DNA from: Blastocatellia bacterium
GTDB taxonomy: Bacteria > Acidobacteriota > Blastocatellia > Chloracidobacteriales > Chloracidobacteriaceae
NCBI GenBank assembly: GCA_019695185.1
Contig: JAIBAN010000012.1
Coordinates: 1 to 64,000 of the forward strand
Reading direction: 5' to 3'
Length of the DNA: 64,000 nucleotides
Shown: positions 13,380 to 32,751 of the stretch, in pieces
How the letters are laid out: each line of letters opens with the position of its first letter
How positions within the stretch are numbered: position 1 is the first letter of the stretch
The notes under the pieces: generated by a model
The model's database searches: none
What the model was told of the DNA's origin: nothing
What the model saw: only the letters and a program-made list of their open reading frames with translations
Position numbers and translations under genes: made by a program

Positions 13380-13500
13380 AGGACTGAGGACTGAGGACTG
13401 AGGACTGAGTTTCAAATTCTGACTCCAAGGCAAAATCTGAGTATATGCCCTGCTCTCATCTACTCCTCAGTCCTCAGTCCTGGCGGGTCCTCAGTTCTGG
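13380..13500. repeat. Inverted heptamer element, AGGACTG family
   Basis: The left arm (13380-13409) has four copies of AGGACTG starting one base after the TGA stop. A unique core of about 53 bp follows. The right arm (13463-13500) carries CAGTCCT copies, partly degenerate. It fills the spacer between two convergent genes. Confidence 0.85.
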
Positions 13501-21619: not shown

Positions 21620-21747
21620 GAGGACTGAGGACTGAGGACTGAGGACTGAAAATTCAGGACCGCGAGCTGAGTTTTCATCATTTACCTGAAAAATTGAAGT
21701 CAGCCAAGCTGATTTTCTCAGTCCTCAGTCCTCAGTCCTCAGTCCTG
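21620..21747. repeat. Inverted heptamer element, AGGACTG family
   Basis: The left arm (21620-21649) has four AGGACTG units. The core is about 67 bp. The right arm (21717-21747) has about four CAGTCCT units and ends 5 bases before the M28 gene stop. It occupies the whole spacer upstream of the hybrid kinase. Confidence 0.9.
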
Positions 21748-26860: not shown

Positions 26861-27034
26861 GGACTGAGGATTGAGGACTGAGCCGACCAATCTTCCGATG
26901 ACTTTAGAATTCTTCACATAACTCTGCTTCCGCGTGGAAAGATTCCCATACAGAATTATGGAAATCTGCACCAAACTTCCTTAATATGGCTCTTGCTCAG
27001 TCCTCAGTCCTCAGTCCTCAGTCCTCAGTCCTCA
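26861..27034. repeat. Inverted heptamer element, GGACTGA family
   Basis: The left arm (26861-26883) has three units, one mutated to GGATTGA. The core is about 112 bp. The right arm (26996-27034) has five TCAGTCC units and ends 7 bases before the next ATG. There is therefore no room for a normal Shine-Dalgarno outside the repeat. Confidence 0.88.
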
Positions 27035-30388: not shown

Positions 30389-30611
30389 CAGGCGTGCTTC
30401 ACTTTGTGGTCTGGCTAAAAGTCGCGCACAGTATCACTTTTGTTGAGAAAATTGAACTGAACTGCTTCCAACCCGGTGACCGGTTCTCCGAATGGTTGCG
30501 CCTCAGTTGGCGGCAGTCAGCCTGGTCAGCACAGGTTTATGCCTACATTCTGGAATCTTTGACCAGTCGTCCGGCACCAGGATAAATTCATCTGGAAACT
30601 TGGCGGAGGCT

Positions 30612-30624
30612 TTTGCTATAGTCG
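30612..30624 (+). promoter_or_regulatory. Possible extended -10 promoter of tRNA-Arg
   Basis: TTTTGCTATAGTC contains TG-N-TATAGT (extended -10) at about 30615-30622, 22 bases before the tRNA. No good -35 is visible. The rest of the spacer from 30389 shows no gene. Confidence 0.4.
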
Positions 30625-30643
30625 CCGCCGCTTCAGTTTTTAT

Positions 30644-30931
30644 GCGCTCATAGCTCAGTTGGATAGAGCAACGGCCTTCTAAACACAATTGGACCTGTTG
30701 CGGAAACACCGGAACCGCAACAGTGGACGGCACTATATCGGTGAAACCTTCCCGGAAATTTTTCGGATGGCAATACCGAGGGAACCCCGGATTTTTTGGG
30801 GACTCCGTAGAGACTGCACGTGCCGCACCTGAGATGGTGAAGATACAGTCCAGACCACAAACCCGCCTGGGGTGGCGAAAGCCATAGTGGTACGAAGCCG
30901 TAGGTCGCAGGTTCGAGTCCTGCTGGGCGCA
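30644..30931 (+). tRNA. trnR: tRNA-Arg(UCU) interrupted by a group I intron
   Basis: The exons are 30644-30680 and 30895-30931. Joined, they give a canonical 74-nt tRNA. The acceptor GCGCTCA pairs with TGGGCGC (one G-U). The D arm is TAGCTCAGTTGGATAGAGC. The anticodon stem is ACGGC/GCCGT with loop CTTCTAA, anticodon UCU. The T arm is CGCAGGTTCGAGTCCTGC, and A is the discriminator. CCA is not encoded. The intron follows anticodon base 36, so the gene cannot be read without splicing. Confidence 0.95.
30681..30894 (+). ncRNA. Self-splicing group I intron, Azoarcus-like (IC3 type)
   Basis: The intron is 214 nt and has no ORF. The 5' exon ends in U30680 and the intron ends in G30894, as required. 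The internal guide GGA (30691-30693) can pair with UCU through a G-U wobble at the splice site. P2 is CTGTTGCGG/CCGCAACAG (30695-30703/30715-30723). P3 is CGGCAC/GTGCCG (30728-30733/30820-30825). P4 is TCGGT/ACCGA (30738-30742/30775-30779). P7 is GACTG/CAGTC (30812-30816/30846-30850). P8 is CACC...GGTG. P9 is a TGGC-GAAA-GCCA tetraloop hairpin (30873-30884). The 3-bp guide and small size match the Azoarcus tRNA-Ile intron plan. Confidence 0.93.
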
Positions 30932-30938
30932 TTTCTTA

Positions 30939-31027
30939 AGGACTGAGGACTGAGGACTGAGAGAAAAGTAAGCCCTCCCTTACGGTTGGGGTTCTGCTTC
31001 AGTCCTCAGTCCTCAGTCCTCAGTCCT
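30939..31027. repeat. Inverted heptamer element, AGGACTG family
   Basis: The left arm (30939-30963) has three AGGACTG units, 8 bases after the tRNA. The core is about 35 bp. The right arm (30999-31027) has four CAGTCCT units that run into the proS stop codon. It separates the convergent tRNA and proS. Confidence 0.9.
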
Positions 31028-32751
31028 TACCTCAGTTTGGCTTTTGCTTCCGCCACCACATTCCGGACATGTGCAACCACGCTGGCGAGGTCCAGGTCTT
31101 CGTTTGTCTTGGTGGAGCGGGTGAAGAACTCGACTTTGTTTTCCTTGAGTTTTTTCGGTCCGACCACAATCCGGAAGGGAATGCCCACCAGGTCGGCATC
31201 CTTGAATTTCACGCCCGGACGTTCGTCACGGTTGTCCAAAATGACATCCACACCGGCGGCCTTGAGTTCGCGGTAGATGGTTTCGGCTGCCGTCCGCATG
31301 GCTTCGTCAGTGAAGTTGACCGGCGTCACCACCACTTCAAACGGAGCAATCGAAACCGGCCAGCAGATACCGTCCGCATCGTGATAAAGCTCGACGGCGG
31401 CAGCCATAATCCGCTCAACGCCGATACCGTAGCTGCCCATCACAATCGGCACTTCCCTGCCGTCCTGCGTGAGCACGTTGGCTCCCATCGAAACACTGTA
31501 TTTGAGGCCGAGTTTGAAAATATGGCCGACTTCGATGGATTTGTTGACTTCGAGCGTCGCGTCACAGCGCGGACAGCCTTCCCCGGCTTTGACCGTGCGG
31601 AGCGAAGCCCATTTCGTGACCTTGATGTCACGTTCGACATTCACGCCGCGCAGGTGGAAATCGTTTTCGTTCGCGCCGGTCGTCATGCTGGTGCGCCCGC
31701 GCAGGGCCTCGTCAGCAATCACCGGATACGTGGTCACACCAACTGCGCCAAGACTGCCGGGATGCGCCCCCAGGGCTTCAAAGATTTCGTCGGGTTGAGC
31801 CGGACGGAAATCATTGGCTCCCACCGCATCTTTGATTTTGGTTTCGTTCAGTTCGTGGTCGCCGCGCAGGAGCGCCAGGGTCAGCTTGCCATCCAGCACG
31901 CAAACGTAGGTCTTGATTTGGTTGTGCGCCGCCGCACCCCCTTCAAAGGTCACCAGTGCTTCAATGGTGCGGATGCCAGGGGTGGCAAATTTTTCCGGTG
32001 CGTCGAGTCCCGAACCATCCGGAACCGGCTCCAGTCGGGAAACGGCCTTTTCCACGTTGGCCGCATATCCACAGGATGCGCAACTGGCAATCCAGTCCTC
32101 TCCGGCTTCCGAAGCCACCATAAACTCGTTTGAAGCGCTGCCGCCCATGGCACCGCTGCTGGCCTCGACCACCGCAAACCGGAGTCCACAGCGGGAATAA
32201 ATCCGGCGATAGGCTGCGTCGTGCAAATCAAAGCTCTTGTCCAGCCCATCCGTGTCGAGGTCAAAGGAATACGAGTCCTTCATGGTGAACTGCCGCACCC
32301 GCAGCACGCCCGACTTGGGCCGGGGTTCGTCGCGGAACTTGGTCTGAATCTGGTACCAGATTTGGGGCAGTTGTTTATAGGAACGCAATTCATTGCGGGC
32401 AATCGCCGTGAAGATTTCCTCGTGGGTCATCCCCAGGCACAACTCAGCGCCTTTGCGGTCCTTGAGGCGGAACATGTTGTCGCCCATCACGTCCCAACGA
32501 CCTGATTCGCGCCACACCGAAGCCGGGTTGAGCGCCGGGAGGTAAAATTCCTGTGCGCCGATGGCATTCATTTCCTCGCGCACGATGTCGGTGATTTTGA
32601 GGAGCGTTCGCTGGGCCAACGGGAGCATCGAGTACACACCTGCTGTCAATTGGCGGATAAAACCGCCGCGCACCAACAGTTTATGGCTGACCGCCTCGGC
32701 ATCAGCCGGATGTTCACGCAATGTGGGAACGAATAAGTTGTGCCAATACAT
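31027..32751 (-). CDS. proS: Prolyl-tRNA synthetase, bacterial type
   Basis: The product has 574 residues from the ATG whose complement is at 32749-32751, preceded by TAAGG. The longer frame adds 30 residues that do not match the family. The N-terminus [20 protein letters not shown] and motif 1-2 regions ([45 protein letters not shown]) are typical of bacterial ProRS. The central insertion is the YbaK-like editing domain against mischarged Ala-tRNA. The C-terminal anticodon-binding domain begins about [10 protein letters not shown]. It attaches proline to tRNA-Pro in the cytoplasm. Confidence 0.96.

Follow-up and report, generated by a model that had tools for sequence, protein, structure and literature searches.

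A group I intron between U36 and A37 of tRNA-Arg(UCU) in a Blastocatellia bacterium, with related introns two bases away in the same tRNA

In the window, the whole 64,000-nucleotide stretch of Blastocatellia DNA that we analyzed, a tRNA-Arg(UCU) gene at 30644-30931 on the forward strand is interrupted between U36 and A37 of its anticodon loop. We conclude, with a probability of roughly 0.93, that a bacterial tRNA-type group I ribozyme interrupts this gene and would splice itself out to leave a functional tRNA; as judged from the sequence, it is a real and probably active intron with no ORF. Its closest relatives are predicted to splice two bases away in the same tRNA, which is a new observation.

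The 5′ exon (30644-30680) ends in CTTCT at U36, with the anticodon complete. The intron (30681-30894; 214 nt) ends in G, the omega G at 30894, and the 3′ exon (30895-30931) runs from A37 to the discriminator A73, with CCA not encoded. The joined exons, GCGCTCATAGCTCAGTTGGATAGAGCAACGGCCTTCTAAGCCGTAGGTCGCAGGTTCGAGTCCTGCTGGGCGCA, form a perfect cloverleaf. When introns were allowed, ARAGORN called a tRNA-Arg(tct) at this locus with i(39,214); without introns, it found no tRNA in the window. An independent cloverleaf search with the rule of a U before the intron and a G at its end gave the identical split. Thus the position, the 214-nt length and the joining of the exons, as proposed in a sequence-only reading of this DNA, were correct. 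Because the 5′ side is CTTCT and the 3′ side is CGAAGCC, the splice site is unambiguous: it is 36/37 and not 34/35. A likely promoter at 30593-30622 on the same strand (TGGAAA, 18 nt, and TATAGT with a preceding TG) is a match to the consensus only. An upstream block of the gene, CTGGAAAC and TTTTGCTATAGTCGC, was also found upstream in G003, a genome of another genus in the same family.

Close to the gene, between convergent genes, lies a perfect 25-bp inverted repeat (30937-31029) of tandem heptamers, (GGACTGA)n / (TCAGTCC)n. Heptamer repeats were also seen at 13381-13480, 21622-21745 and 26996-27031 of the window and at 2792-2859 of another locus, L274; the window holds 17 exact 15-mers of its own repeat, with none expected. 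The orthologous site in G003 has the same hairpin architecture with a different heptamer (TTAGTGG / CCACTAA).

With the helices placed by hand, P1, P2, P3, P4, P5, P6, P7, P8, P9.0 and P9 were all located in the intron, which is the full group I layout; all lie on the forward strand. P1 (30678-30693) pairs the anticodon UCU (30678-30680) with the guide GGA (30691-30693), with a U36-G30691 wobble at the splice site. P2 (30697-30721) pairs 30697-30703 with 30715-30721 and shows three double compensatory changes relative to the G003 intron. P3 (30728-30825; 30728-30733 with 30820-30825), which is supported by covariation, encloses P4-P6. Inside it are P4 (30738-30779; 30738-30742 with 30775-30779), seen both in the minimum free energy fold and by covariation, P5 (30747-30752 with 30765-30770, within the P4 span), P6 (30780-30806; 30780-30781 with 30805-30806), supported by covariation, and, within the P6 span, P6a (30785-30788 with 30798-30801). 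P7, the guanosine-site helix (30812-30850), pairs 30812-30816 with 30846-30850, and 100% of its cells were paired in the alignment described below. P8 (30826-30839; 30826-30829 with 30836-30839) was again seen in the fold and by covariation. The span 30854-30891 holds P9.0 (30854-30858 with 30887-30891), P9a (30862-30864 with 30869-30871) and P9 (30873-30876 with 30881-30884), the last with a GAAA loop. An endonuclease ORF is absent from the intron, for which 214 nt leaves no room, as the sequence-only reading had stated.

The insertion in the anticodon loop and the arrangement of P9.0 and P9, common to Leu and Arg introns, fit the bacterial tRNA (IC3-type) introns. The tRNA-Ile(CAU) intron of Azoarcus, also IC3, has a similar size and layout and a site beside the anticodon, but its guide suits CAU and its L2 is unlike that of the window intron. 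In the window intron L2 is a loop of 11 bases, and the short GNRA-type loop, usual but not universal in IC3-type introns, is missing. An enlarged L2 was also found in the G003 intron and in Arg(UCU) introns inserted at 34/35, whereas L2 in Leu, Lys and Arg(CCU) introns is mostly a short GNRA-type loop. P6 is GG/CC in the window intron, in contrast to the GC/GU-type P6 of Leu, Lys and Arg(CCU) introns.

The minimum free energy structure of the unspliced RNA contained the tRNA arms together with P2, P3, P4, P5, P6, P8 and P9 (z = -3.68; 1 of 200 shuffles folded equally well). For covariation, 16 introns from tRNA-Arg(UCU), Arg(CCU), Leu(UAA) and Lys(CUU) were aligned over 53 pairs. The fraction of paired cells was 84.4% (72.8 ± 0.9 in shuffles), the number of double-change cells was 104 (41 ± 5), and 34 pairs had both sides changed (22.7); on every measure the real structure was unmatched by any shuffle. 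When the partners were slid by 1-3 columns, pairing fell to 31-46%, in a test that somewhat favors the real structure over the slid versions because it was drawn from the window sequence. P1, P4, P6, P7, P8 and P9 were paired in all 16 introns (100%), and P9.0 in 97.5%. Two pairs of P1 showed double changes across hosts, and the guide tracked the 5′ exon from host to host (GGA/UCU, GGG/CCU and GAG/CUU). These results bear out the earlier assignment to group I introns of the Azoarcus-like tRNA type. The P2, P3, P4, P7, P8 and P9 pairings proposed then were all placed and are supported by covariation, and the U at the 5′ splice site, the G at the 3′ end and the 3-bp guide (UCU with GGA) were confirmed.

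A check with an Infernal group I model, which the same reading had suggested, gave a weak match. The Rfam model Intron_gpI (RF00028) matched 30631-30875 at 23.9 bits (E = 8e-4 for 801 bases), below its gathering score of 50, which is a curated search threshold and not a defining structural feature. No match at or above this threshold was obtained, so that standard annotation would miss the intron. The Arg(UCU) relatives were also weak with this model (29.5-40.8 bits, or no match). tRNAscan-SE 2.0 is not designed for detecting such introns, according to its paper (PMC8450103).

If the intron acts as its structure predicts, the split gene would be transcribed as a single precursor, in which the intron would fold into the P4-P6 and P3-P8 domains and its GGA would pair with the anticodon UCU. 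The first attack, after U36, would come from an external guanosine in the P7 binding site, the freed 3′-OH of U36 would then attack after the last G of the intron, and ligation of the exons would give a 74-nt tRNA reading AGA (and AGG). Alternatively, the RNA might be unable to splice alone and might depend on a protein cofactor, for example an RNA chaperone or a synthetase active in splicing. Some group I introns do require proteins (reviewed in PMC3984707), and the window intron has a short P6 and an L2 without the short loop of related introns. We consider this unlikely, however, in view of the tight pairing of the 214-nt core and the GAAA loop of P9. Bacterial tRNA introns of about this size self-splice in known cases, as in Azoarcus and Anabaena.

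The 162 genomes of the class were searched with a pattern that joined the Arg(UCU) 5′ half to a 36/37-type guide, and only the window's genome and G003 matched. The G003 intron (L055) is 302 nt long and has a larger P6 loop, in which tblastn found nothing convincing as an endonuclease remnant. The two introns share a locus, with a GT2 glycosyltransferase gene on one side (64% identity between the genomes) and proS on the other (77%), and are themselves 78% identical. Pairing is kept at six pairs in which both partners differ and at two in which one partner differs, while two pairs, both in P5, are broken. The compensatory changes point to selection since the two lineages split. A chance or repeat artefact is excluded by the covariation and by the conservation in G003. 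Extending the pattern to the phylum (396 genomes) added only one genome, G265, and this match (L273, G265:C24:5962) was rejected: it is the 5′ half of a tRNA-Arg(UCU) gene, and neither a 3′ half close by nor an intron was found. An integrated element has probably cut the tRNA here, leaving this 5′ half at its edge.

According to the sequence-only reading, the split gene would be a pseudogene if it failed to splice and a second intact tRNA-Arg(UCU) gene existed in the genome. One extra intact copy was indeed found, in a tRNA array on contig C101 of the window's genome, so the split gene may be dispensable in that one species. The codon AGA is also rare (1.0 per 1000 codons in the window ORFs), as might be expected if the split gene were decaying while the array copy did the work. 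We nevertheless regard such decay as very improbable, because the cloverleaf is perfect, every catalytic helix is intact, there are compensatory changes relative to the G003 intron, and G003 itself shows no intact copy. A pattern for the intact gene matched 106 of the 162 genomes of the class but found none in G003, which is 99% complete. Since the genes of G003 use AGA codons, its tRNA-Arg(UCU) probably comes from the split gene alone. That the intron is conserved at this locus in a genome with no intact match suggests that the window intron is probably functional and not part of a pseudogene.

The array on C101 comprises about 30 genes covering most amino acids (4850-9037 of L033, G000:C101:5500-15500). 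Its flanks look chromosomal, and heptamer repeats separate the tRNAs. Another contig of this genome carries an ordinary-looking tRNA with a CTA (amber) anticodon (L034, 100-173, G000:C62), labeled Pyl by ARAGORN.

Trees built from the core sequences joined the introns of the window and of G003 to a sister clade, the Arg(UCU) introns of their own class that are inserted at 34/35, with support of 98-99. The core has only about 190-200 aligned columns, and the deep branches are therefore weak. Thirteen further Arg(UCU) 34/35 introns were found, some of ~235-275 nt and some of ~650 nt. The closest to the window intron are L113, L115, L116, L278-L283 and L286-L290, and the more distant are L117, L146, L150-L152, L284 and L285. 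These introns resemble the window intron in host tRNA, core, J3/4, P6 and P8; the shared traits, identified by eye, are CTATATCGGTGAA, the GG/CC of P6 and a short P8 loop. They differ in their predicted splicing after U34 with the guide GAG, whereas the window intron would splice after U36 with the guide GGA and has no ORF. The three long introns examined (L113, L115 and L116; ~650 nt) each encode a PD-(D/E)XK endonuclease (PDDEXK_5, PF11645; E = 2e-39 to 3e-41). The earlier suggestion of old vertical inheritance or ORF loss is partly supported on both counts, because the locus is shared with G003 and relatives in the class bear ORFs.

The Arg(CCU) introns of Methylobacterium, cyanobacteria and others share the U36 splice site, a similar 5′ end and the core with the window intron, but have the anticodon CCU and the guide GGG and form a separate clade. 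At least 105 were found in a scan of named genomes, all inserted after U36, an arrangement that the search pattern required. The window intron might belong to this family and have hopped to Arg(UCU) through a guide change from GGG to GGA, as the identical insertion site and the similar 5′ end (AATTGGGC / AATTGGAC in Methylobacterium Arg(CCU) introns) could suggest. This origin is quite improbable given the grouping in the trees and the traits shared with the 34/35 introns, and it was rejected as monophyly of all 36/37 introns (AU p = 0.005 and 0.014). Monophyly of all Arg(UCU) introns was not rejected (p = 0.17 and 0.06). The tRNA-Leu(UAA) introns resemble the window intron in their core and GNRA-type P9 loop, but they are inserted at 34/35 with the guide GAG and fall in a different clade.

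Group I introns in tRNA genes are common across the class, with Asn, Lys, Leu, CAU and Arg tRNAs among the hosts. RF00028 matched in 62 of the 162 genomes, and the host tRNAs at the loci examined were Asn(GUU) and Lys(CUU), both interrupted after U35, Leu(UAA) and Arg(UCU), both after U34, and a CAU tRNA, after U33. The window's own genome also carries a Leu(UAA) intron. The Asn(GUU) introns after U35 were seen in many genomes, with Rfam scores of up to 108 bits, beside Lys(CUU) introns after U35 (Asn(GUU) / Lys(CUU) loci: L084-L101; L104, L109, L110, L112, L122-L124, L127, L128 and L138). No report of tRNA-Asn as a host of a group I intron was found in the literature that we looked at. The CAU tRNAs interrupted after U33 (L102, L105, L106, L111, L114, L118, L119 and others) are elongator Met or Ile2 tRNAs, and their site differs from that of the Azoarcus Ile(CAU) intron.

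In a 2014 review, the tRNA group I introns listed are confined to cyanobacteria, alphaproteobacteria and betaproteobacteria (PMC4033280), and among the papers searched none combined Acidobacteriota with tRNA genes and group I introns. The earlier view of tRNA-Arg(UCU) as a new or little-noticed host was only partly right: it is not new, since a paper on Beggiatoaceae had already reported tRNA-Arg-TCT and tRNA-Leu-TAA as hosts of putative group I introns (PMC4853749). These bacteria share the host tRNA with the window and, like the window's genome, also have a tRNA-Leu-TAA intron; unlike the window's host they are Gammaproteobacteria.

Taken together, the core trees and the splice positions indicate that related introns occupy two sites, two bases from each other, in one anticodon loop. 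In the 34/35 introns the guide region, GGAG, holds both guides: GAG matches C32-U33-U34, and GGA matches U34-C35-U36. A register shift of one base could thus have relocated the intron. Such a shift might have occurred through reverse splicing or repair, leaving the tRNA product unchanged. The plain alternative is that the two sites arose by separate insertions of related introns. We tentatively propose, at somewhat less than even odds, that a single intron lineage has used both sites, after U34 and after U36, and that a one-base shift of the guide moved the intron, perhaps to a form resistant to the endonuclease. If this is true, the 36/37 form might escape the endonuclease of the 34/35 form. 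The adjacent splice sites, with a guide that fits both, would provide a natural test of intron movement by re-registration of the guide.
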